NCBI GenBank assembly: GCA_016931995.1
Contig: JAFGDS010000124.1
Coordinates: 1 to 33,756, forward strand
Direction: 5' to 3'
Source of the DNA: Pirellulales bacterium
GTDB lineage: Bacteria > Planctomycetota > Planctomycetia > Pirellulales > Thermoguttaceae
Length of the DNA: 33,756 nucleotides
Position numbers and translations under genes: made by a program. Each line of letters opens with the position of its first letter. Position 1 is the stretch's first letter. Shown here in pieces: positions 6,836 to 25,545 of the stretch. The notes below the pieces were generated by a model. The model ran no database searches. It was not told where the DNA came from and saw nothing but the letters and a program-made list of their open reading frames with translations.

Positions 6836-6909
6836 CGTCATCCTGAGCGAAGCGAAGGATCTCGTTTGTGCCGAAGGGTTTGAGGTCCTTCGCTTCGCTC
6901 AGGATGACG
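6836..6909. repeat. Family B palindromic repeat, perfect 24-bp arms
   Basis: The arm at 6836-6859 (contains CCTGAGCGAAGCGAAGGA) is matched perfectly by its inverted copy at 6886-6909, with a 26-bp spacer. With one mismatch the pairing extends three more base pairs into the spacer. A second complete copy is at 32110-32183. The element lies between divergent genes, 79 bp before the CHAT gene start. Confidence 0.85.
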
Positions 6910-6987
6910 TGTCACGGTGAGGGTCTTGTGATTCGAATCATCGAAGGAATATCGAAGGGGACAGCCCCCTCTACGGAGGAGCCCATC

Positions 6988-9900
6988 ATGAACGGTGTCT
7001 TCCCGATCTCGAAAGCTTGGCGGTCGACGGCGCGGCGCGGCCTTTTGGCCGCCGGGGCGATCCTGGCGCTGGTGGCGTCCGCCGCGCGGGCACCGGCGCA
7101 ATTCGACCAGCAGGACGTGCCCACCTTGCGTTATCGCGCCGCCTTCGGCGCCTACCACGACGGCGAGTACCGCGACGCGCTAAAGATCTTTCAATCCGAG
7201 GGTCGCGGCGCGATCAAAACCGCGCAAGCCCGCTGGATCGACTCCATCTGCTACCATGCCATGTGCGGCGAGTGCTATTACCAGATGGGCCAACTGCCCG
7301 AAGCCATGGAGCATTACATCTCGGCCATCAATCTGTACATCGCCTATTCCGACTGGATCATCCGCGTGAAGTTCCAGCCGCTGCGGCCGGGGTCCGCGCC
7401 GGGCGTGCGCGACCGGCCCACCTGGGGTCGGAGTCAGCGTCAGTCCGTGCCGGGCCATTTCCCCGACTCGATGCTCATTAGCCAAGGCCGGCTCGACGCG
7501 AACGAGGCCTTCCGCCGCGGCGGCGTCGTGCAGCCGCCCATCATGTTCGGCATCAACGTCGTCGAGATCGTGCGATGCACCGCGCTGGCCATCCGCCGAC
7601 GCAACGAACTTTTGGGACCGGTCTCGCCGCACGATCCCCTCTCCGACCGTCTGCTGACCGCCTTGAGCCAGCGGCCGGGACTGCCCAACCACTGGTCGGA
7701 ATGTTGGATCGACCTACAGCTTGGCCTGGCGCAGCGGGCGGCCGGCAAGGACGTGCAAGCGCTGGCCACGCTGCAGCGCGCCGTGACGGCCTCGGGCCAG
7801 TTCGACCACCCGATGACGTGCGCCGCCCTGCTGGAACTCGGCAAAATGGCCCTGGCCCAGGGCGATCTGGGCGGCGCAGCCACATCGTTCCTCGAAGCGA
7901 CCTACTCGGCCGCCTATTTCCAGGACCTGGGCGTGTTGGAGGAAGCGTTTCGCTTGGGCGCGGTTGTCCATCTCATCTCCAATCAGAAGACCGTCTATCC
8001 GCCCCTGCCCGAGGCGATCCGCTGGGCCGGGCGCAACCGCTACCGGCAACTCCAATGTTCGCTTCTCCTATCGTTGGCCGAGAACCACGCCGCGCTGGGC
8101 CATGCGAAAGAGGCCGCGGCCGCGCTGGAGGAGGCCGCCGGCCTGATGGTCCGGCGCGAGATGGGCGCGGGACGGCTGGGAGGGCGGCACGCGTACCTGT
8201 CGGCCCTCGTCCGCTACCAGGGCGGCGATCTGGCGGGCGGCGACCGGTCGTTGGCCACGGCCATGACGTTCCTCCGGCTAAGCTCCCATTGGCTCTATCA
8301 GACGCGGCTTGCCGACGGCCTGTACACGGAAGGCACGATCACGCCGCGCACCGCGGTGGACGTGTTCACCGAGGTGCTCCGCGATCCCCGCGCGGCCGAT
8401 TGGTCGCGGGATCCGGCCGAGTGTCTTGCCTCGCTCGCCGTCCCCCACCCCGCGCCGCTGGAGCATTGGTTCGAGGCCGCCTTGGACCTGGGCAAAATGG
8501 ACGCCGCGCTCGAGATCGGCGACCGGATCCGACGCCACCGATTCTTCAGCTCGCTGGCGTTGGGCGGGCGGCTCGAGTCGCTGCGGTGGCTCCTGGAAGG
8601 GCCGGAGGAACTGCTCGACAACGAGGCCAAGCTGCACCGCCGCGATCTGCTGGTCCAACTGCCCGACTACGCCAAGCTCCGCCAGCGGGCCGCGGACGTG
8701 CGGGCGGCGCTTGCCCGCGGACCGCTGGTTCCTCCGGACGCCGAGGGCGCCGCCGCGCAGCAGAAGCTCCTGGGCGAACTGGGGCTTTTGGCCCAACGCC
8801 GCGAGGTCATCCTGCGCGAGGTCGCCCTGCGCCGCCAGCCGGCCGCGATGGTGTTTCCGCCCTTGCGCGGCACCGAACAGATCCAAAAGGCCCTGCCCGA
8901 CGGCAGCGCGGTGTTGGTCTTCCTCGCCACGCGGACGCAGCTCCACGCGTTCCTGTTGAACAACAAGACGTACTCGCACTGGCGCGTGATTGCCGCAGCG
9001 CCGTTGGGCAAGGCCATCGCGGGAATGCTCCACGAGTTGGGCCACCACGACGGCAACCGCGAGCTGCCGCTTAAGGACCTCGACGACGCGGCCTGGCCCA
9101 AGGCGGCCGAGGCCCTGCTGGCCATGATCCTGCAAGACTCCAAGGCCGATTTCGCCACGGAGTTCAAACAGCTCATCGTCGTGCCCGACGGAATGCTCTG
9201 GTACGTCCCCTTTGAAATGCTTCAGGTTTCGCGCAACGGGAAGTCGGAGTCGCTCATTTCGCGGTTGCGGATCCGCTACGCGCCGACCGTCGGTCTGGCG
9301 GTATCGGATGGGCGGGGGCGCCGCCAGTCGGCCCGGACGGGCGTCGTGGTGGGCCGGCTCTTCCCGCGCGACGATCCGGCGGTGGCGCGCGCGGCGTGCG
9401 ACTCCTTGGCGGTCGCCCTGCCCGGCACGGTGGCTCTTCCCGACCCGCTGCCGGCCCCCTCGTCGCTTTGCCGCACGCTCGTGGACCGGCTCGTCGTGCT
9501 CGACGACCTGCCCGCGACCGGCGCCAGCGCCTACGATTGGCCTCCCATGGGCCAACGCAGCGCGGCGGGCGGCACGCTGGCCGACTGGATGCGGCTTCCC
9601 TGGGGCGGCCCGGAAACGGTCGTCCTGCCCGGCTACCACACGGCGGCCGAAAACGGCCTGAAGCAGACCGGCTCGGGCGAGGAGATGTTCCTGTCCCTCT
9701 GCGGACTCATGGCCAGCGGCACGCGGACCGTTTTGATGAGTCGCTGGCGGACCGGCGGCCAAAGCAGCTTCCAGCTCGTCAACGAATTCGCCCAGGAGTT
9801 GCCCCACCTGTCGCCCGCCGAGGCGTGGCAACGGGCGGTGCTCGTGGTTCAGGAGTCGCGCGTGAACCTCGACGCCGAACCGCGGATCAAGCGAACCCCC

Positions 9901-10116
9901 AGCGACGATCCACCCAAGGCAACCCATCCGTTTTTCTGGGCCGGCTATCTTCTCGTCGACTCCGGCGACCCCCTACCCAAGCCCAACGACCTTGGCCCGC
10001 CCGTCCTCAAGCCTCCCGTCCCGGCGGTAAAAGAAGAGAACGAGGTAGCGCCGGAGCCCGACAAGGGCGCGGCCGAGGAGCCAAAGAAGGAAGCCGAGTT
10101 GGAGCCAGAGAAGTAG
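6988..10116 (+). CDS. Exported TPR protein with a degenerate CHAT domain
   Basis: 1042 residues from the ATG at 6988, chosen because GGAGG lies just upstream and a signal peptide follows (hydrophobic 14-30, ending APAQ). Residues about 40-560 are Ala/Leu-rich helical repeats of TPR type. The CHAT-type (caspase-like, HetF-associated) domain covers about 620-985: LPDGSAVLVFLATRTQLHAF, then LIVVPDGMLWYVPFEML near 729, and SRWRTGG near 917, where active relatives have a SLWxV-type motif. The stretch expected to carry the catalytic Cys (LSACETG in classical members) reads LPGYHTAAENG at about 880, and no HxxxHG-type His motif is seen. It is therefore probably a non-proteolytic scaffold or receptor. 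The last 45 residues are Pro/Glu/Lys-rich. The gene stands alone, 303 bp before the next. Confidence 0.85.
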   Translation: MNGVFPISKAWRSTARRGLLAAGAILALVASAARAPAQFDQQDVPTLRYRAAFGAYHDGEYRDALKIFQSEGRGAIKTAQARWIDSICYHAMCGECYYQMGQLPEAMEHYISAINLYIAYSDWIIRVKFQPLRPGSAPGVRDRPTWGRSQRQSVPGHFPDSMLISQGRLDANEAFRRGGVVQPPIMFGINVVEIVRCTALAIRRRNELLGPVSPHDPLSDRLLTALSQRPGLPNHWSECWIDLQLGLAQRAAGKDVQALATLQRAVTASGQFDHPMTCAALLELGKMALAQGDLGGAATSFLEATYSAAYFQDLGVLEEAFRLGAVVHLISNQKTVYPPLPEAIRWAGRNRYRQLQCSLLLSLAENHAALGHAKEAAAALEEAAGLMVRREMGAGRLGGRHAYLSALVRYQGGDLAGGDRSLATAMTFLRLSSHWLYQTRLADGLYTEGTITPRTAVDVFTEVLRDPRAADWSRDPAECLASLAVPHPAPLEHWFEAALDLGKMDAALEIGDRIRRHRFFSSLALGGRLESLRWLLEGPEELLDNEAKLHRRDLLVQLPDYAKLRQRAADVRAALARGPLVPPDAEGAAAQQKLLGELGLLAQRREVILREVALRRQPAAMVFPPLRGTEQIQKALPDGSAVLVFLATRTQLHAFLLNNKTYSHWRVIAAAPLGKAIAGMLHELGHHDGNRELPLKDLDDAAWPKAAEALLAMILQDSKADFATEFKQLIVVPDGMLWYVPFEMLQVSRNGKSESLISRLRIRYAPTVGLAVSDGRGRRQSARTGVVVGRLFPRDDPAVARAACDSLAVALPGTVALPDPLPAPSSLCRTLVDRLVVLDDLPATGASAYDWPPMGQRSAAGGTLADWMRLPWGGPETVVLPGYHTAAENGLKQTGSGEEMFLSLCGLMASGTRTVLMSRWRTGGQSSFQLVNEFAQELPHLSPAEAWQRAVLVVQESRVNLDAEPRIKRTPSDDPPKATHPFFWAGYLLVDSGDPLPKPNDLGPPVLKPPVPAVKEENEVAPEPDKGAAEEPKKEAELEPEK

Positions 10117-15951: not shown

Positions 15952-16254
15952 TCCTGGCCCTCCCATGATGCGAAAACAGTGATAAGAACCGGGCGACCAA
16001 TGCCATAAATACGAACCGACCGGAGGCGCCTTCTTCCCAGCTTCCCTCTAGCGTCCCCAAAACCTCCCAACGATCCAATCCAATTTTTCGCAAAACTACT
16101 CCGGCATTGCGTCAGACCGGCTGGCCACACGGGAGGGACCGCGCGCAGACCGTCCTCGTCGGAAGTCCGTGGCTTCGCCAACGGGCGCGGTCGTGCTCTC
16201 GCGTCAACGATTGGGGGAAACCATTCCCTTGGACGCGAATGAAGAACCCCGCCC
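15952..16254. other. Intergenic region between PEP-CTERM and P-II genes
   Basis: Both flanking genes are on the minus strand, so this holds the leader of the 294-residue gene. The stretch 15970-16100 is AT-richer than the genes around it and is the likely promoter zone, but I could not settle on one -35/-10 pair. No open frame looks real. Confidence 0.4.
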
Positions 16255-16276
16255 AAAAACGTCCGGAAGACGTTTT
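16255..16276 (-). terminator. Candidate Rho-independent terminator of the P-II gene
   Basis: On the minus strand AAAACGTC-TTCCG-GACGTTTT forms an 8-bp perfect stem closed by a five-base loop and followed by one more T. The stem begins inside the TAA stop codon (16275-16277) of the P-II gene. The GC content of the stem is modest. Confidence 0.55.
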
Positions 16277-16622
16277 AGATCGCCTCGCCCCCGCGTTCGC
16301 CGGTGCGGATGCGAATGCAATCCTCCAGGGGGAGGACCATGATCTTGCCGTCGCCGATCTCGCCCGTTGGGCCAGTGCGGCCGCCCTTGAGGATGGCATC
16401 GATGGTGGGCTGGAGAAAGGCGTCGTTTACGGCGATGGTCAACTGCACCTTGCGGACCAGACTGACCGTGAGCTCGTGTCCGCGGTAGACCTCGGTGTGG
16501 CCCCGCTGACGCCCAAAACCCTGCACGTCCATCACGGTGAGTCGGAAGACCTCGACCTCGGCCAATGCCGCCTTGACCGCTTCGAGCCGGTTGGGCTGAA
16601 TGATTGCGATGATGAGCTTCAT
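16275..16622 (-). CDS. Nitrogen regulatory protein P-II (GlnB/GlnK family), lacking Tyr51
   Basis: 115 residues. The start at 16622 is set by GAGGAGG eight bases upstream. The family is a cytoplasmic trimer that senses 2-oxoglutarate and ATP/ADP and controls nitrogen enzymes or ammonium channels. Seen: the T-loop region GFGRQRGHTEVYRGHELTV (35-53), the B-loop region ending GEIGDGKI, and the C-terminal CIRIRTGERGGEAI. Two departures: the residue at the uridylylation site (Tyr51 in E. coli GlnB) is Leu51, codon CTC, while Tyr46 is kept; and the B-loop is three residues longer (RTGPTGEIGDGK against a shorter TGKIGDGK). So it is probably not uridylylated at the usual site. No amtB, glnA or glnD is nearby. 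Whether it is GlnB or GlnK cannot be told. Confidence 0.93.
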   Translation of the reverse strand: MKLIIAIIQPNRLEAVKAALAEVEVFRLTVMDVQGFGRQRGHTEVYRGHELTVSLVRKVQLTIAVNDAFLQPTIDAILKGGRTGPTGEIGDGKIMVLPLEDCIRIRTGERGGEAI

Positions 16623-17013
16623 GGTCGACGCCTCCTCACCCGCGGCAAAAAAACCGAAAACCGCCCCCGCGGAGGGAAACCCCTCGTCCTTCCGCGACTC
16701 GATGGATTCTCGTCCGCCCAAAGCTTGAGGCCCAGCCTACCACGTCCCGAACGGCCCGTCCATTGCGCGTGTGCCACTGGGCTTAGCCAAATCATAGAGG
16801 GCACAACACCCATATTGGTTATATCTTGATACCCCGGTCACGGCCACTTCTTGTTCGACCTTGCCGGTTTTGACGATTCTCTCGATTTTGCGGGTTTTGC
16901 GGCCGATGAATAGAAGACGAACGCCGGTTTCCCGGTTCGCGGGCTGTCCGTGGACAGCCCGGCAAGCGGGATGCACGCGCCGGCGACGGCTCGTGTTCGA
17001 GGGTAAAGATACC
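16623..17013. other. Divergent region, P-II / Cys-rich lipoprotein
   Basis: This 391-bp gap contains a half copy of family C (GTGTGCCACTGGGCTTAGCC, 16769-16788) and the perfect palindrome GGGCTGTCC-GT-GGACAGCCC at 16941-16960. An AT-rich patch (ATTGGTTATATCTTGATACC, about 16814-16833) is a plausible promoter location for the plus-strand gene, but the hexamers are not clear. Confidence 0.45.
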
Positions 17014-17658
17014 ATGAGACGCACATTATTTTTGGGACTGGCGGCCGCGACGCTCGTCATGGGCAGCGGCTGCTGCCATTCGTTCCGCTCTTTCGTTTAC
17101 AGCCCCTTTGGACCCGGCACGCTCTGCGATCCGCGGTATTGCGGCGGATGCGGCGAATGCGACCCGTGCGGCGAGCCTGCCGCGTGTGACGAGGGCTGCG
17201 GCTGCGGAACCATCGGCCGACGACACGCGGTCGCGATCGAATCGGACTGCGGGCCGACGTGCGATGGATGCGCCGGCCACGGGTGCGATCACTACGGCTA
17301 TCCCACTGGGCCGCTCACCTGGGTGTTCGAGATCTTCAACCCCCGATGCTGGGACGGCGGATGCGGCGAGCGCTACTGGGGCGATTTCCACGGCGATCCG
17401 CCCGACTGCCGCGATCCATGCGATCGGTCCGGCAACTGGACCGGCGGACCGTGCGCCGGCTGCGGGATAACGAGCGAGTCGTGCGCCGACTGCGGGACAA
17501 CAGGCGGATCCGGGAGCTACGGACGGGTGATTCCCCTGGAAACGAGCGACCGGGCTCTCGGCCCGACCAGGGACGATTCGGGCGGCGCGCCGGCCTCGCC
17601 GGAGCCCATCGAGGACCCCTACGCCTCGCGCCGCGTGCCCACGCGGGCTCGCCGCTAG
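17014..17658 (+). CDS. Cysteine-rich lipoprotein, unknown function
   Basis: 214 residues from the ATG at 17014, where the signal sequence begins; the frame is open from 16861 but that part looks non-coding. Seen: a lipoprotein signal (MRRTLFLGLAAATLVMGSGC), Cys20 being the probable lipid site, then a region rich in Cys, Gly and Asp (22 Cys in all), for example YCGGCGECDPCGEP and EGCGCGTIG. Tryptophans cluster around RCWDGGCGERYWGDF. The last 45 residues are Pro/Asp/Arg-rich without Cys. Proteins of this kind are common in planctomycetes. The Cys pattern could form disulfides or bind metal; neither is shown. The stop codon overlaps a strong hairpin shared with the convergent gltA. Confidence 0.7.
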   Translation: MRRTLFLGLAAATLVMGSGCCHSFRSFVYSPFGPGTLCDPRYCGGCGECDPCGEPAACDEGCGCGTIGRRHAVAIESDCGPTCDGCAGHGCDHYGYPTGPLTWVFEIFNPRCWDGGCGERYWGDFHGDPPDCRDPCDRSGNWTGGPCAGCGITSESCADCGTTGGSGSYGRVIPLETSDRALGPTRDDSGGAPASPEPIEDPYASRRVPTRARR

Positions 17659-17688: not shown

Positions 17689-18975
17689 CTACCGTTGGTC
17701 GATCGGCACGTAACGGCTCTCTGGCGGACCCGCGTAGACCTGTCGCGGCCGCAGGATCCGGCTCGTCGGGTCGATGTGTTGCTCTTTCCACTGCGCGATC
17801 CAGCCGGGCAGCCGCCCGATCGCGAAACACACCGTGAACATGTTCGTCGGGATGCCGATGGCTCGAAGCAGAATCCCGCTGTAGAAATCCACGTTGGGAT
17901 AAAGCTGTCGCTCGACGAAATACGGATCGGCCAGGGCCAATTCCTCCAGCTTTCGGGCGATGTCCAATAGGGGGTCGTTGCGGTTCATCTGGGCAAACAC
18001 CCGCTCGCACGCGGCCTTGAGGATGGTGGCCCTGGGGTCGAAGTTGCGATACACGCGATGCCCAAAACCGTAGAGTCGGAAGGGATTATCCTTGTCCTTG
18101 GCGTGGCGGAGGCAGTCCTCCGCCGAGAGGCCGCCGTCGCGGATCCGTTCGAGCATCTGGATCACCTCGACGTTGGCCCCGCCGTGCAACGGCCCCCACA
18201 GCGCGCACACGCCCGCCGCGCACGAGGCGAACAGGTTCGCCCGCGCCGAGCCGACCAGCCGTACCGTCGACGTGCTGCAATTCTGCTCGTGGTCGGCGTG
18301 CAGGATGAAGAGCAAATTCAACGCGTCCTCGACCTCGGGCGTGATCTCGTATTGCCGGTACGGAATCGAGAACATCATGTGCAGGAAGTTCGCGCAGTAG
18401 CGCAGCTTCGGATCGGGATAGATAAACGGCAATCCCTGCGAACGCCGGCACGCGAACGCGGCGATCGTGCGCACCTTGCTGATCAAACGCGCCGCCGCCT
18501 GCACGATCGACTCGCGGTCCTCCACCGCCAGAAACTGCTGATGATAGAACGCCAGGCTCGTCACGATCGCCGAGAGAATGGCCATCGGCGGCGCGTCGAC
18601 CGGGATCCGCTGGAATTGGTATTTGATGCCCTCGTGCACCAGCTCGTTCTCGGTTAACAGCTCGCTGAACTCGGCCAGCTCCTCCTTGTTGGGCAACCGC
18701 CCGAAAATCAGAAGCCAAACGACCTCGACGAAGTTGGGCTTCGCGGTAAACTGCTCGATCGGGATGCCCCGGTACCGCAGGATCCCGCGTTCCCCGTCGA
18801 TGAACGTGATCTGGCTCTGGCATATGCCCGTATTGGCCAGCGACGGATCGTACGTGATCATGCCCGTCCGCGCCCGCAGTTGCGAGACGTCGATCGCCGG
18901 ATCGCCCTCGGTGCCTCGCAGGACGGGCAGTTCGATTTGCTTGTCGCCGTAGATCAACGTCACCGTGTCCACCAT
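17689..18975 (-). CDS. gltA: Citrate synthase (type II)
   Basis: 428 residues, the length of E. coli GltA, and it aligns with it almost without offset. It condenses oxaloacetate and acetyl-CoA to citrate at the entry of the TCA cycle, in the cytoplasm. Seen: LHADHEQNCSTSTVR (His226/His229), GPLHGGAN (catalytic His264), GFGHRVYRN (His306) and YPNVDFYSG (catalytic Asp363). The N-terminal beta-rich extension (LIYGDKQIELPVLRGTEG) is typical of the hexameric, Gram-negative type that NADH can inhibit; whether it does so here is not visible. GGGAG lies eight bases before the ATG. The gene is convergent with the lipoprotein gene and follows tRNA-Arg on the same strand, 226 bp away. Confidence 0.97.
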   Translation of the reverse strand: MVDTVTLIYGDKQIELPVLRGTEGDPAIDVSQLRARTGMITYDPSLANTGICQSQITFIDGERGILRYRGIPIEQFTAKPNFVEVVWLLIFGRLPNKEELAEFSELLTENELVHEGIKYQFQRIPVDAPPMAILSAIVTSLAFYHQQFLAVEDRESIVQAAARLISKVRTIAAFACRRSQGLPFIYPDPKLRYCANFLHMMFSIPYRQYEITPEVEDALNLLFILHADHEQNCSTSTVRLVGSARANLFASCAAGVCALWGPLHGGANVEVIQMLERIRDGGLSAEDCLRHAKDKDNPFRLYGFGHRVYRNFDPRATILKAACERVFAQMNRNDPLLDIARKLEELALADPYFVERQLYPNVDFYSGILLRAIGIPTNMFTVCFAIGRLPGWIAQWKEQHIDPTSRILRPRQVYAGPPESRYVPIDQR

Positions 18976-19201: not shown

Positions 19202-19275
<74 letters not shown>

Positions 19276-19533: not shown

Positions 19534-20478
19534 TCAGGGGGCGAACAGCTCCCACCAGATGAGCAGGGCTTCCTGGGCCGTGCTGGCCGAAGCGGGATTG
19601 ACGATGAGGCGGGCAATGTCGGGCTGAGCTTGAAGGTCCATGTCGTCGAGAAACAACTGCAACTCCTTCATCGACGGCTTGTCGCCCTTTTGGCTCTTCG
19701 CGAACAGCTCCTTGTACTTCTTGTGGTAGGCCGCCCGATGGTCGAGCAGGTGGCGCTTCAGCAAAGCCGCGGCCTTCCGGGGATCCTTCTCCGCTCGGAC
19801 CAACGCGACCAGCCGCGGGCGGATCGATGAGAGCTCGCCGGTCCCTTCGACGCCCTCGAGCGGGCCTTCCTCGGCCGCCGGTTTCCCACCGGGCGCCGTG
19901 TACTTTCCGCCGGTGACCACGTCGAAAGGCTCGTCCTCGCCCGACTTGAAAAGGATTGGCACGGAGACGTACTGGCCACCCTGGGGCACGTCAACCATGA
20001 AGTGCAGGTGCGGCGTGGCCGAGAAGCCGGTGTTGCCCGACATCGCAATCCGTTGGCCCTCCTGGACTCTCTGCCCGACCTTCACCTTCGCGCCGCGATG
20101 TGCGATATGGTGGTAGACGGCGCGGCTGCCGTCGTCGTGCCGGATGCGAACGGAGTTGCCCTTCTGTTTCATATCTTCGGTCAAACCCGACTTGGAGAAG
20201 GAATCCACGACCTCGATGACGACACCGGCCCGGGCGGCGAGGATGGGCGTTTCTTCCGGCATGAGCCAGTCGATGGCGTAGATGTTCTCGTGCGTCGGGT
20301 ATTCCAGGTAGCCCTGGGTCACCTCGAAGGTCGCCCCCGGCTCGTAGGGGAGCGAGTAGAGCGGCCCAACCGGCTCGACGTCCGGCGGCCTCATCCCGTT
20401 TTGCGCCGCAAGCGGCGCGGCGGAGAGCGCGAACAGAACGCCGAAAAACGTCGCGGCCGCAAGGAATCGCCCATGCAT
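19534..20478 (-). CDS. M23-family (LytM-like) peptidase, exported
   Basis: 314 residues from the ATG at 20478, chosen for GGAGGT eight bases upstream and the signal peptide that follows (hydrophobic 5-24, ending AAPLAAQ). The M23 fold covers about 45-195. Zinc ligands are visible: His63 and Asp70 in HENIYAIDW and His159 in PHLHF, with VYHHIAH (about 121-127) and the usual GQRVQEGQRIAMSGNTGFS turn before it. Such enzymes cut peptide cross-links of peptidoglycan or related substrates in the periplasm. The C-terminal 110 residues are helical and charged (KDPRKAAALLKRHLLDHRAAY) and unfamiliar. All ligands are kept, so activity is likely. The gene is divergent from the RND operon. Confidence 0.9.
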   Translation of the reverse strand: MHGRFLAAATFFGVLFALSAAPLAAQNGMRPPDVEPVGPLYSLPYEPGATFEVTQGYLEYPTHENIYAIDWLMPEETPILAARAGVVIEVVDSFSKSGLTEDMKQKGNSVRIRHDDGSRAVYHHIAHRGAKVKVGQRVQEGQRIAMSGNTGFSATPHLHFMVDVPQGGQYVSVPILFKSGEDEPFDVVTGGKYTAPGGKPAAEEGPLEGVEGTGELSSIRPRLVALVRAEKDPRKAAALLKRHLLDHRAAYHKKYKELFAKSQKGDKPSMKELQLFLDDMDLQAQPDIARLIVNPASASTAQEALLIWWELFAP

Positions 20479-20591
20479 CGGTGTGAACCTCCGAAGGTCC
20501 CGAAACACCGCCTGCCGACGGCGGGCGGCTGCCCCGCTCAAGTCTAGCCCGCCCATTCCGTGCCCCGCGCATGGCTTCCGGGACTTGGTGA

Positions 20592-20615: not shown

Positions 20616-20704
20616 CGTCGCCCCGTTGTTGTCGGGTGGAGACCTATATTTCAACAGCGCCAATATGGCCTTGCTTTGTTCTGACGATGTGAACGGGTGT
20701 GAGT

Positions 20705-22000
20705 ATGACAAGCCGTGTAGGGCAACGGGCGGCGGGAGCGGCGGCGCTCCTGACTGGTGTTCTGGGGCTGGGCGGCTGCGGGAGGGATTCCGGGACAACG
20801 CCCGAGGGAGTCAAGCCGACCGTCAAGGTCGTCCGGCCGGTGGTCCGCGAGGTGACCGACTACGCCTTCTTCACCGGGCGCACGGAGGCGATCGAATCGG
20901 TCGACGTGCAGTCGCGCGTGACGGGCTATCTCGACTCGATCGACTTCAAGCCGGGCAGCGAAGTGAAAGCCGGCCAGCGGCTCTTCAAGATCGATCCCCG
21001 TCCCTACCAGGCCGCGCTGGACGAGGCCGCGGGCCAGGTGAAGCTTGCCGAAGCGCGGCAAAAGCTGGCCATCGCCGACTATGAGCGGGCCCTCGAAGTG
21101 GCCAAGACGCCGGGGGCCATCAGCCAGCAGGACATCGACAAGTACGCCGCGGCCAAGAGCGAAACGCTGGCCGCGGTGGACGCCGCCAAGGCCAGTTGCG
21201 AATCGGCCCGGCTGAACGTCGAGTTCACCGACATCCTCTCGCCGATTGACGGCTTGGCGGGCCGCAATCTGCTCACCGTCGGCAACCTGGTCAAGCAGGA
21301 TCAGACGCTCCTGACCACCGTCGTCTCGGAAGACCCGATGTACGCCTACTTCGACGTCGACGAGCACACGATGCTGCGGATCCAACGCCTGATTCTCGAA
21401 GGCAAGATCCAGGCGTCGCATGCGGGCGGACACGTGGCGGTGCAGATGGGCCTGGCCGACGAGGGCGACGACTACCCGCACGAGGGGCAAATCGACTTCG
21501 TCAATAACCGCGTGGATCCCTCGACGGGCACGCTGCAGATCCGCGGCGCGTTTCCCAATCCGGCCAAGGGGGCCAGCGCGCTAAGGATGCTTTCGCCGGG
21601 CATGTTCGTCCGGGTGCGTCTGCCCATCGGCGCCGCGCATTCCGCCCTACTCGTGCCCGAGGCCGCCATCGGAACCGATCAGGGCCGCAAGTACCTTCTG
21701 GTGGTGAACGCCCAGGGCTTGGTCGAGTATCGGCCCGTCATGCTCGGGGCACAGCAGCCCGGCGGGCTCCAGGTCGTCGTGCCCGTGAAACTCGCGCGGA
21801 CCGACGCGGGATGGTCGGAGGCGGACGCTTCGACCCCGGCCGGCGGGGCCATCGTGGACAGCATCGCGCCGGACGACCAAGTGATCGTCGGCGGCTTGCA
21901 ACGGGTGCGGCCGGGCACGGCGGTCGCCGTGGCGCCGATCGAGCCGGCGCATGTGCCAGCCGGCCCGGTGGCCGTTCACGTGAATCCCCCAACGCCCTGA
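20705..22000 (+). CDS. RND efflux periplasmic adaptor lipoprotein (AcrA/MexA type)
   Basis: 431 residues from the ATG at 20705; a GTG two codons earlier is possible and neither has a strong ribosome site. Seen: a lipoprotein signal with lipobox L-G-G-C (Cys25), then the membrane-fusion layout. The lipoyl half is VDVQSRVTGYLDSIDFKPGSEVKAGQRLFKIDPRPYQAALDEA, split into short words here only by domain order; next come a helical hairpin (about 95-155), the second lipoyl half (FTDILSPIDGLAGR), a beta barrel and a membrane-proximal end. It bridges the inner-membrane pump and an outer-membrane channel. The permease gene follows after 32 bp, so the two are surely one operon. No TetR- or MarR-like regulator is adjacent. 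Confidence 0.93.
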   Translation: MTSRVGQRAAGAAALLTGVLGLGGCGRDSGTTPEGVKPTVKVVRPVVREVTDYAFFTGRTEAIESVDVQSRVTGYLDSIDFKPGSEVKAGQRLFKIDPRPYQAALDEAAGQVKLAEARQKLAIADYERALEVAKTPGAISQQDIDKYAAAKSETLAAVDAAKASCESARLNVEFTDILSPIDGLAGRNLLTVGNLVKQDQTLLTTVVSEDPMYAYFDVDEHTMLRIQRLILEGKIQASHAGGHVAVQMGLADEGDDYPHEGQIDFVNNRVDPSTGTLQIRGAFPNPAKGASALRMLSPGMFVRVRLPIGAAHSALLVPEAAIGTDQGRKYLLVVNAQGLVEYRPVMLGAQQPGGLQVVVPVKLARTDAGWSEADASTPAGGAIVDSIAPDDQVIVGGLQRVRPGTAVAVAPIEPAHVPAGPVAVHVNPPTP

Positions 22001-22032
22001 CGGACGTCCCAGCCCCGCGAGGTGCGCGCCAC

Positions 22033-25000
22033 ATGTTCGCCCGATTCTTCATCGAACGCCCGATCTTCGCCTGGGTCGTCTCGATCGTTATCCTTCTGGT
22101 CGGTTCGGTGGCGGTCTTCCTGCTGCCGATCGCCCAGTATCCGGACATCACGCCGCCCACCGTCGAGGTAATGGCCAGCTATCCCGGCGCGAGCGCGCAG
22201 GTCGTGGCCGACAGCGTCGCGGCGCCGATCGAGCAGCAGGTCAACGGCGTCGAGCGGATGCTCTACATGTCGTCGCAATGCACCAACGACGGCAGCTACG
22301 TCCTGACGGTCACGTTCGAGCTGGGCACCGACTTGAACATGGCCCAGGTGCTGGTGCAAAACCGCGTCGCCCTGGCCATGCCGCTTTTGCCCTCGCAGGT
22401 GCAGGTGCAGGGCGTCACCACGAAGAAGAAATCGCCGAGCATCCTGCTGGCCGTGAACCTGATCTCGCCGGACGGGCGCTACGACGACCTGTATTTGTCC
22501 AACTACGCGACGATCCAGCTCAAGGACGAGATCGCGCGGATCAATGGCGTGGGCGACGTGACGTTTCTGGGCCAGCGCGACTACAGCATGAGGGTGTGGC
22601 TCGACCCGCAGAAGATGGCCTCGCGCAACCTGGCCGCCATCGACGTGGTTCGCGCCCTGCAAACGCAAAACGTCCAGGTGGCCGCCGGCCAGGTGGGCCG
22701 CGAGCCCGTGCCCAGCGGACAGCAGTTTCAGTTCACGATGAGCACGCTCGGGCGTCTGGCCGACGCGGAGCAGTTCGCCGACGTCATCATTAAGACCGGC
22801 CAGGGCGACGAGGCGGAGGGCCGCGCGTCGAGCCAGGTGGTGCGGCTGCGCGACGTGGGCCGCGTGGAGTTGGGCGCGCAGATCTACGACCAGATTTGCC
22901 ACCTGGACGGGGCGCCCTCGGTCGGCATGGCCGTCTTCCAGCTGCCCGGCTCGAACGCCCTGGACGTGGCCAACAAGGTCAAAGCCAAGATGAGCGATTT
23001 GGCCGAGCGGTTTCCCGACGGCCTCGAATACCGCATCGGCTATGACACGACGCCCTTCATCGAGGAGTCGGTCGACGAGGTCTTCAAGACCCTGCGCGAC
23101 GCGATCGTCCTGGTGGCCATTGTCGTGCTGTTCTTCCTGCAAGACTGGCGGGCGATGATCCTGCCGATGATCGACGTGCCCGTCTCACTGGTGGGCACGT
23201 TCGCCGTCATGGCCGTCATGGGTTTCAGCCTCAACAACCTGACGCTCTTCGGCATGGTTCTGGCCATCGGCATCGTCGTGGACGACGCGATCGTCGTCTT
23301 GGAAAACGTCGAACGCCAGATGACGCTCGGCCTGGACGCGAAATCCGCCACGATCAAGGCGATGGGCGAAATCACCGGGCCCATCATCGCCATCACGCTC
23401 GTGTTGAGTTCCGTGTTTCTGCCGAGCGTGTTCGTGCCGGGCGTCACCGGCCAGTTCTTCCGCCAGTTCGCCCTGGTTATCTCCTCGGCCATGATTATCT
23501 CGGCCATCAACGCGATGACGCTCACGCCGTCGCGGGCGGTGGCCATCTTCCAAAAGGAGCAGCTCGACGAGCACGGCCATCCGCGCCACGAAGCCCTGCC
23601 GTGGTGGATCTTCATCGCCCTGGGAGGGCTGGCCTCCGTGTGGCTCGGCAAGACGCTCCTGGCCGGGCACGCGGGACTGCCCGCGGCCGACGAGATGGAA
23701 GGCCACGGCCTCGGCTGGCCGGCGCTGGCCGGCCTCTTCGCGCCCGGGGCGCTGGTCGGCGGCGCGGTGGGCTGGTTCGCCATCGGGCGGGTGAACGCCG
23801 CGCTGGCGCGGTTGTTCGGCGCGTTCAACCGCCTGTTCGACCGGCTGACCGACGCCTACGGCCGCACGGTGGCCCGTCTCGTGCGGGTAAGCTTCGTCGT
23901 GCTGTTCGTCTACGGCGGGCTGTTGGGGCTGACCGTCTGGTCGATGGGCGCCGCCCCCAAGGCGTTCATCCCCGAGCAAGACCAGGGCTACCTGCTGGTC
24001 AACGTCCAACTGCCCGACTCCGCCTCCGTCGAACGCACCCAGGCCGTGATCGACAAGATCCACCGCATCGCGATGGGCGACCCCGCCGCGCCGGGCAAGC
24101 CGAAGGGCATTCCCGGCGTCAACCACACGCTCTCCGTCGCCGGCCAGTCGCTCATGCTCAGCGCCAACGGCTCGAACTTCGGCTCGTGTTTCGTCATTCT
24201 CGATCCCTTCGATCGCCGACACGAGCCGGACCGCTACGACGTGGCGATCGCCAAGACGCTCCGCGAGCGGTTCGCCGCGGAGATCGACGAGGCGGAGATC
24301 CAGATCTTCCGCGCGCCGCCCATCCAGGGGCTCGGCAGCGGCGGCGGGTTCAAGCTCCAGGTCGAGCAGCGCGGCTACGTCGATCTCGACGAGCTGCAAA
24401 CGCAGACCGACGAACTCGTGGCGGCCGCGAACGCCAATCCGCGCCTGCTGGGCGTCTTCACCATGTTCCGCGCCGACACGCCGCAGTACTACCTCGACAT
24501 CGACCGGACCAAGTGCGAATCGCTCGGCGTGCCCGTGCAGGACGTGTTCGACACGCTCCAGGTGTACATGGGCGGGTACTTCGTGAACCTGTTCAACGCC
24601 TTCGGGCGCACCTGGCAGGTGAACGTCCTGGCCGAGCCCGAATACCGCACCCGCGTGGCCGACCTCCGCCAGCTCGAGGTCCGCAACCAGCTCGGCCGGA
24701 TGGTCCCCCTGGCCACGCTCTTCAACGTGAAGGATCAGGGCGGGCCGGTCATGGTGATGCGGTACAACATGTACGCTTCGGCGCCCGTGGTGGGCAATCC
24801 CGCCCCGGGTACGAGCTCCGGCGACGTCATCCGCATCGTGCAGAACCTGGCGGACAAGAATGGCGTCGCCAGCGAGTGGACGGAGATCATGTATCTCCAG
24901 ATCCTCGCCGGCAACGCGACCATCTACATCTTCGCCATCGGCACGGCGCTGATCTTCCTCGTGCTGGCGGCCAAGTACGAAAGCTGGAAGCTGCCGCTGG

Positions 25001-25545
25001 CCGTGATCCTGGTCGTGCCCATGTGCCTTCTGTGCGCGGTGGCCGGCATGTTGGTTGCCTCGCTGCCGGTGGATATCTTCGTGCAGATCGGCTTTCTGGT
25101 CCTGGTGGGCCTGGCGGCGAAGAACGCCATCCTCATCGTCGAGTTCGCCCAGCAGTTGCAGGACCAGGGTCGCTCGCCGGGCGACGCGGCGGTCGAGGCC
25201 GCGCGGCTGCGGCTGCGGCCTATCGTGATGACCTCGTTCGCCTTCATCTTGGGCGTCGTGCCGCTGCTGTTGGGCACGGGCGCCGGCGCGGAGATGCGCC
25301 GCTCGCTGGGCACGGCCGTGTTCGCCGGCATGATCGGCGTCACGGGCTTCGGAATCCTCCTAACGCCCGTCTTCTACTATGTGCTCATGCGCCTGCACCG
25401 CCGCGCGACGCCCGAGCCGGCCGCCCCGACCGGCGACGCTTGGCTGGATCGCTACGACTTCACCGCCGCGCCTTCCATCCCGGACGCCGCGCCCGCGCCC
25501 GAAACCCCCGCGCCCTCCGCCAGCGGCCAAGGTGGCACGGTCTGA
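22033..25545 (+). CDS. RND efflux permease, HAE1 family (AcrB/MexB type), with extra helices
   Basis: 1170 residues from the ATG at 22033 (GAGGTG upstream), against about 1050 for AcrB. It is a proton-driven inner-membrane pump expelling hydrophobic compounds, solvents or drugs. Seen: FFIERPIFAWVVSIVI at the start, the TM4 proton relay GIVVDDAIVVLENVER (Asp417, Asp418) and GLAAKNAILIVEF with the partner Lys1030. Relative to AcrB the Asp pair is shifted by 10 residues but the Lys by 90, so about 80 residues are inserted between them. The extra part, near 512-595, holds two hydrophobic stretches (LPWWIFIALGGLASVWLG and GWPALAGLFAPGALVGGAVG). LTPSRAVAIF stands where AcrB has LTPALCATLL. The C terminus is Ala/Pro-rich and its TGA lies in a family B repeat remnant. 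The substrate is unknown. Confidence 0.95.
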   Translation: MFARFFIERPIFAWVVSIVILLVGSVAVFLLPIAQYPDITPPTVEVMASYPGASAQVVADSVAAPIEQQVNGVERMLYMSSQCTNDGSYVLTVTFELGTDLNMAQVLVQNRVALAMPLLPSQVQVQGVTTKKKSPSILLAVNLISPDGRYDDLYLSNYATIQLKDEIARINGVGDVTFLGQRDYSMRVWLDPQKMASRNLAAIDVVRALQTQNVQVAAGQVGREPVPSGQQFQFTMSTLGRLADAEQFADVIIKTGQGDEAEGRASSQVVRLRDVGRVELGAQIYDQICHLDGAPSVGMAVFQLPGSNALDVANKVKAKMSDLAERFPDGLEYRIGYDTTPFIEESVDEVFKTLRDAIVLVAIVVLFFLQDWRAMILPMIDVPVSLVGTFAVMAVMGFSLNNLTLFGMVLAIGIVVDDAIVVLENVERQMTLGLDAKSATIKAMGEITGPIIAITLVLSSVFLPSVFVPGVTGQFFRQFALVISSAMIISAINAMTLTPSRAVAIFQKEQLDEHGHPRHEALPWWIFIALGGLASVWLGKTLLAGHAGLPAADEMEGHGLGWPALAGLFAPGALVGGAVGWFAIGRVNAALARLFGAFNRLFDRLTDAYGRTVARLVRVSFVVLFVYGGLLGLTVWSMGAAPKAFIPEQDQGYLLVNVQLPDSASVERTQAVIDKIHRIAMGDPAAPGKPKGIPGVNHTLSVAGQSLMLSANGSNFGSCFVILDPFDRRHEPDRYDVAIAKTLRERFAAEIDEAEIQIFRAPPIQGLGSGGGFKLQVEQRGYVDLDELQTQTDELVAAANANPRLLGVFTMFRADTPQYYLDIDRTKCESLGVPVQDVFDTLQVYMGGYFVNLFNAFGRTWQVNVLAEPEYRTRVADLRQLEVRNQLGRMVPLATLFNVKDQGGPVMVMRYNMYASAPVVGNPAPGTSSGDVIRIVQNLADKNGVASEWTEIMYLQILAGNATIYIFAIGTALIFLVLAAKYESWKLPLAVILVVPMCLLCAVAGMLVASLPVDIFVQIGFLVLVGLAAKNAILIVEFAQQLQDQGRSPGDAAVEAARLRLRPIVMTSFAFILGVVPLLLGTGAGAEMRRSLGTAVFAGMIGVTGFGILLTPVFYYVLMRLHRRATPEPAAPTGDAWLDRYDFTAAPSIPDAAPAPETPAPSASGQGGTV

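Follow-up and report, generated by a model that had tools for sequence, protein, structure and literature searches.

Few nitrogen sensors are as widespread as the P-II proteins, and it has long been argued whether they need covalent modification to function or carry it as an addition. The P-II groups are reportedly described by Sant'Anna in 2009. Uridylylation and adenylylation appear relatively restricted within the family, according to sections of one review that also report adenylylation of P-II Tyr51 or phosphorylation of Ser49 elsewhere (PMC4285133). The abstract of a study of E. coli (PMC4274968) states that GlnK-Tyr51Ala continues to associate with AmtB and to dissociate from it according to nitrogen status, and that AmtB control is independent of uridylylation, though its dynamics are affected by it. 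GlnK1 of M. mazei is described, in passages of PMC10651883, as docking on glutamine synthetase through T-loop contacts, and the PII-NG group as linked to CzcABC-type metal efflux genes (in the excerpted text of PMC7726332). The anammox bacterium K. stuttgartiensis has four GlnK proteins, and the term "uridylyl" is absent from the portion of the text at hand (PMC7438415). A literature search covering papers outside subscription returned none on planctomycete P-II modification or on a B-loop insertion such as that described below.

The P-II gene studied here comes from a Pirellulales bacterium and lies in what we call the window, the whole stretch of 33,756 nucleotides that was analysed (Table 1). 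A preliminary description of this DNA had recognized a P-II protein, and this identity is borne out by a Pfam PF00543 match of 87.8 bits (cut-off 25) that pairs protein residues 1–109 with profile positions 1–102. The strand, absent from that description, is minus: read in this direction the gene encodes a P-II of 115 aa, and the plus-strand reading gives a different peptide. An AlphaFold model (pLDDT 87.7) has the ferredoxin-like β-α-β-β-α-β arrangement with T-, B-, and C-loops, and matches P-II structures at Z up to 16.2. Against seven relatives the gene gives dN/dS values, by division of the computed values, of 0.05–0.07 in six pairs and 0.09 in the seventh. Judged from its sequence, the protein is a genuine P-II of a planctomycete branch, a variant of a well-known protein and not new in kind. 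It falls below the curated cut-offs of the NCBIfam equivalogs PRK10858 (108.4 vs 202 bits) and PRK10665 (107.7 vs 181 bits); some of the window frames used in the profile searches are mechanical ORFs, possibly not genes.

No sigma-70-like promoter was found within 16150–17050, and the best sigma-54 candidate for the window gene matches only 7/11 positions. The type-A P-II gene of the same genome (see below) has a sigma-54-like upstream site matching 10/11 positions; in the scan as a whole, 14/214 upstream regions reached at least 10, where simple shuffling, which is a weak control, predicts 2.2. The search for RNA families in the window found a tRNA at 19202–19275 only. Elsewhere in the window lie a large CHAT-domain protein with weak TPR matches (6868–10116), an M23 peptidase gene (19534–20556) and, on the strand opposite to the latter, genes for an RND efflux adaptor, which matches MexE models best, and an AcrB-family pump (20699–25545).

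Table 1. Coordinates in the window of the type-B P-II gene, its features, and its upstream neighbour
Feature	Position	Strand	Basis
P-II family gene (type B), 115 codons + stop	16275..16622	-	translation, Pfam PF00543, orthologues
Likely Shine-Dalgarno, GAGGAGG	16631..16637	-	8 nt before ATG; read from sequence
T-loop, residues 37–55 GRQRGHTEVYRGHELTVSL, Tyr46 and Arg47 kept	16458..16514	-	sequence; lowest-pLDDT blocks at residues 31–60
Codon 51, CTC (Leu); Tyr in GlnD-modified P-IIs	16470..16472	-	alignments, orthologue counts, codon reading
Extended B-loop, residues 82–93 RTGPTGEIGDGK, three longer than ordinary P-II	16344..16379	-	alignments and orthologues
C-loop Arg104-Ile-Arg106, kept	16305..16313	-	orthologue comparison; R[IV]R itself a type-B selection criterion
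Neighbour citrate synthase gene (gltA), context only	17689..18975	-	upstream, 1066 bp away; NCBIfam PRK05614

The name and limits of the T-loop (residues 37–55) follow general usage for the family; residues 31–60 form the lowest-pLDDT blocks of the predicted model (79, 50, 77). Within this loop, the leucine and the retained tyrosine noted earlier are confirmed by the codons themselves, CTC at position 51 and TAC at position 46. In phmmer alignments Leu51 faces Tyr in the solved P-IIs of M. tuberculosis, H. seropedicae, and Aquifex; the window protein carries leucine where GlnD-modified GlnB and GlnK have tyrosine. The same alignments uphold the longer B-loop, which has three residues more than these three proteins, located within the loop ending in GDGK or immediately ahead of it; by match-table coordinates, which carry no alignment letters, E. 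coli GlnB is also three residues shorter over this span. The exact insertion site is ambiguous, the aligner's gap shifting between targets. Residues 81–90 of the model, which hold the extra residues, have a mean pLDDT of 80 (moderate), and by analogy with the family these residues would adjoin the nucleotide site. All the residues presumed to serve ATP and 2-oxoglutarate binding in P-II (Q39, K58, the B-loop GDGK, and the C-loop RxR) are present, including Arg104 and Arg106, which we take to be the phosphate-contacting pair.

We defined type B by an R[IV]R C-loop together with a B-loop segment 14 residues long or longer; because both served as selection criteria, B-loop length and R[IV]R are not independent evidence within the 136 distinct type-B proteins. 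A scan of genome contigs for relatives kept the best 80 of 549. Among these 80, L006–L060 encode 115 aa (117 in L056 and L060) and are titled as planctomycetes, except L021, titled "bacterium"; the other 25 encode 112 aa, and 22 come from other phyla. In 148 sampled genomes of the class, which give a count independent of the selection criteria, 115 matches at E 7.1e-47 or better are spread over 109 genomes, and span 345 nt in 114 cases and 330 nt, with a shortened B-loop, in one (G043:C359, L218). That locus (G043:C359:5799-6128) encodes a type-B-like P-II of 110 aa whose B-loop is 5 residues shorter, through either a true deletion or an assembly error. At the same threshold and in the same sample, no match was found in the 38 genomes of family f12 or in one of f16. 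Of these 115 matches we took in 110 (30 loci, then 80 more) and left out five (G137:C620, G065:C64, G043:C461, G102:C299, and G006:C152). Further rows at ~55–66% identity, which include many second copies from family f13, lie outside the type-B count, and 27 further loci from the window's own family were kept separate from the 136. Both the class and the family scans (148 and 61 genomes) are samples from larger groups.

A tree of 94 P-IIs separates type B from the rest at a branch with support 90/75, and unites types B and C with two more proteins, all having the longer B-loop, in a supported set (96/80). The deep forks of this tree are weak because the alignment is short. The longer B-loop is a clade trait, common to nearly all type-B orthologues, which the preliminary description did not mention, and is also found in a second paralogue group, type C.

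The comparison of planctomycete orthologues proposed in that description places tyrosine at residue 51 in just 10 of the 136 type-B proteins; the remainder carry Phe (48), Leu (34), Val (22), Ile (16), Thr (3), Met (1), Ser (1), or Gln (1). The 27 family loci carry Phe (21), Leu (3), Val (2), or Ile (1). This variation goes unmentioned in the preliminary description, as do the amtB and, in a side branch, glnA neighbours of close relatives. Leucine is therefore the second commonest state in the clade, and because it recurs in 34/136 orthologues and the longer loop is common to nearly all, we reject a sequencing error at codon 51 as very unlikely. Such a leucine could change the choice of target. 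Conservation is strong elsewhere: K58, G87, G90, D91, and G92 are invariant among the 136, and Q39 and K93 are each found in 133.

We found four P-IIs in the genome, designated type A (contig C95), B (the window), C (C57), and D (C39). The search for a second P-II with Tyr51, suggested at the outset, found two among the three others, types A and D. Type A, of 112 aa, lies between glnE and amtB, the three genes standing in a row at 1657–7150 of C95 (L240, G000:C95). Type C has the longer B-loop and His at residue 51. Its gene (L003, G000:C57:7625-7942) encodes a decayed T-loop (FDPARGQAQTHPGREHRPRLLRK) and has lost the arginines of the C-loop RxR pair; the five type-C relatives examined also lack this pair, yet have a normal T-loop with Tyr51.

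A parallel search for glnD gave no TIGR01693 match in this genome at E 0.001, and the same search does find GlnD in sister genera. The missing gene may reflect a gap in the assembly (99% complete, 153 contigs). GlnE is kept, with two domains in a 1050-residue frame, and because GlnD was not found the cascade of glutamine synthetase adenylylation seems to be without its top enzyme. Across the sampled class, GlnD is full or nearly so in 75/148 genomes ("GlnD-bearing" meaning best E <1e-50, with 72 above the curated cut-off and the list copied by hand). In the window's own family it was found in 24/61 sampled genomes (E <1e-130; 21 above the cut-off), where absences are soft because several genomes are incomplete. 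The GlnD gene often lies directly after a P-II gene in both samples, and Tyr51 is present in 15/15 glnD-neighbouring P-IIs, a non-exhaustive set picked by eye in which 14 were read by script and G211 (RTGEY) by eye.

Type-B copies behave differently from this set: 35/36 in GlnD-bearing genomes and 72/73 elsewhere are without Tyr51. Since the residue is missing from 35/36 copies despite GlnD, and is equally rare with the enzyme (1/36) and without it (1/73), we reject the idea that Tyr51 was lost because GlnD went. The closest type-B relative found in this comparison (G188, 94%) has no full GlnD, and the next (G176, 93%) has GlnD. On these sequence comparisons, type B seems to stand outside the GlnD circuit. 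The earlier proposal, a metabolite sensor that GlnD does not modify at the usual site, is the reading that we infer as the best one from the conserved ligand residues, the GlnD not found, the 35/36 copies lacking Tyr51, and its presence in the 15/15 glnD-neighbouring P-IIs.

A single amtB was found in the genome, on C95, and a single glutamine synthetase gene, on C68. The statement that the window gene stands apart from amtB and glnA therefore holds for this genome; however, it is not a mark of the protein, as several near relatives have amtB directly upstream. An upstream amtB on the same strand accompanies 28/136 distinct type-B proteins, 124 of the 136 having at least 1.4 kb of upstream sequence; none was found in this position for the other 108, the window's included, with less than 1.4 kb available for 12 of the 136. 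Counting either side or strand gives 30, but the upstream, same-strand figure is used throughout. All 28 linked proteins have Arg47, and L006, 90% identical to the window protein, is one of them. Among the 27 family loci, five have amtB upstream, including L242 (94%), the closest relative found, outside the 136. In a sister group that lacks the insertion, represented by 14 rows of the tree, amtB lies 27–238 bp upstream in 13, and none has Tyr51.

The genome's own AmtB is 78% identical to the AmtB beside a type-A P-II of G042, and 32–55% identical (48% for L006) to those that precede type-B genes at 33 loci, which suggests that the amtB proper to the window gene has been lost. With amtB upstream in 28/136 type-B proteins and in the closest relative found (L242, 94%), the separation looks derived. 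AmtB subtype does not strictly track P-II type, however, because in G011 a type-A P-II comes after an AmtB 63% like that of L006, and the genome's own AmtB is 64% like the one beside the insertion-less P-II of L061.

Seven of the 136 type-B P-IIs (L051, L053, L054, L057, L058, L059, and L098) lack Arg47 and have an eroded T-loop, and no amtB was found within reach before any of them. Set against 28/129 for the other type-B proteins, 0/7 is too small a number to claim that losing Arg47 goes with losing the amtB neighbour. L053, L054, L057, and L058 come after a BBP2-like porin gene; a BBP2-family porin gene precedes the P-II gene in 10 type-B proteins. A side branch in which glnA follows the P-II gene (L036, L037, L038, L043, L044, and L045) carries Tyr51 throughout, and amtB precedes the P-II gene in 4/6 of these loci (L037, L038, L043, and L044).

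Considered together, these comparisons point to a model that we regard as probable, in which the window protein is a GlnK-branch P-II switched by ATP, ADP, and 2-oxoglutarate only, and orphaned here from its amtB. A homotrimer would bind ATP, or ADP, and 2-oxoglutarate in clefts formed by the B-loop, the C-loop, and the base of the T-loop. The shape of the T-loop would then be set by ligand state alone and would decide docking on the target, the GlnD tyrosine switch playing no part and modification of any kind presumably being absent. The ancestral target would most likely be the AmtB ammonium channel, plugged by T-loop Arg47; although the window gene has lost its neighbouring amtB, its product may still work on the single AmtB left in the genome or on a different target. 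The behaviour of E. coli GlnK-Tyr51Ala (PMC4274968) speaks for this model. Against it count the 108/136 type-B proteins for which no upstream amtB was found, the resemblance of the genome's AmtB to a type-A-linked one, the mixed AmtB subtypes, the possible effect of Leu51 on target choice, and the chance that GlnD is missing only through an assembly gap. A broader proposal, which we offer only tentatively, is that planctomycete cells have two P-II channels: a Tyr51 P-II beside GlnD that would combine covalent and ligand control, and a type B that would sense energy and 2-oxoglutarate by ligands only, its re-engineered nucleotide loop altering ATP/ADP affinity. If this is true, P-II would read the ATP/ADP ratio differently across the lineage through the extended B-loop.

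Several other readings can be set against the ligand-switched GlnK model. GlnD was not found in the window genome and the T-loop is eroded in some relatives (Arg47 lost in 7/136), as would be expected if the protein were decaying and its T-loop being lost because GlnD is gone; yet the dN/dS of 0.05–0.09, the T-loop core kept in the window protein, and the equal rarity of Tyr51 in GlnD-bearing genomes (1/36 copies) and in others (1/73) make this extremely improbable. Regulation of carbon flow near 2-oxoglutarate, for example through the citrate synthase encoded upstream, is suggested by gltA lying upstream on the same strand both in the window (1066 bp) and in the sister genus G042 (L236 10430–11707, gap ~140 bp). 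We consider it very improbable, as gltA was not found beside type B in the 27 other family loci (flanks 1.5 kb at most), in 3/4 relatives with ~20 kb of sequence, or in the best 80 of 549 relatives, and the two cases may be coincidental or inherited from a common ancestor; a conserved gltA partnership is accordingly weak, being limited to two genera.

That another enzyme exerts covalent control on the T-loop, at Tyr46 or at a different position, is in our judgement quite unlikely: residue 46 is Tyr in 122/136 type-B proteins, but it is Phe in 11, and we know of no P-II that is modified there. Precedent for other enzymes comes from the Tyr51 adenylylation and Ser49 phosphorylation of other organisms, as given in sections of PMC4285133. 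There is a somewhat better case for a protein whose target is glutamine synthetase and not AmtB, the enzyme being bound and tuned as by M. mazei GlnK1. Its best solved match is GlnK1 in complex with that enzyme, a docking made through the T-loop according to passages of PMC10651883, and glnA directly follows the P-II gene in 5 distinct type-B proteins (6 loci, with glnA confirmed by Pfam in L036). Even so we hold it unlikely, since the glnA linkage is limited to these six loci, all with Tyr51, and the window genome has its glutamine synthetase on another contig and keeps GlnE as regulator of that enzyme.

The occurrence in one genome of a glnD-neighbouring P-II with Tyr51 and a member of a Tyr51-poor orthologue group amounts to a natural experiment on the question of modification, of which the window genome, with GlnE kept and GlnD not found, is a part. 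The B-loop extension near the nucleotide site is likewise a testable change in energy sensing. As uridylylation is known to be missing from many P-IIs, type B is an informative variant and not a surprise.

Among described systems, PII-NG resembles the window protein in belonging to the P-II family and in context, with an RND efflux operon ~4 kb from the window gene. We reject this assignment on context, since the operon is on the other strand and its adaptor fits MexE (multidrug) models best; RND genes are not regular neighbours either, any RND match occurring in 3/80 loci (best 80 of 549 relatives). The genome's own type-A P-II (C95) shares the family and the AmtB linkage, but planctomycete type-A proteins differ in being 112 aa long, in having Tyr51, in lying beside glnD in relatives, and in a sigma-54-like site upstream of four of those scanned. 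By sequence, M. mazei GlnK1 (PDB 8tge; E 2.8e-34, 121 bits vs 110 for the next) is the solved protein that matches best, with a similar run around NLL-K and IAVND-FLEPTI-AI. It falls short of the query by one residue, so that its B-loop exceeds the ordinary length by two, a partial precedent for the longer loop; it differs in being archaeal, in having Tyr at 51, and in a B-loop GSG where the window protein has GDG. With E. coli GlnK and GlnB the window protein shares the P-II fold, the T-loop core HTEVYRG with Arg47, and the ligand residues, and the amtB neighbour of 28/136 type-B orthologues recalls the E. coli GlnK-AmtB pair. In contrast to that pair, no GlnD was found in the window genome and no amtB lies beside its type-B gene, and unlike either E. 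coli protein the window P-II has Leu51 and three extra residues in the B-loop.
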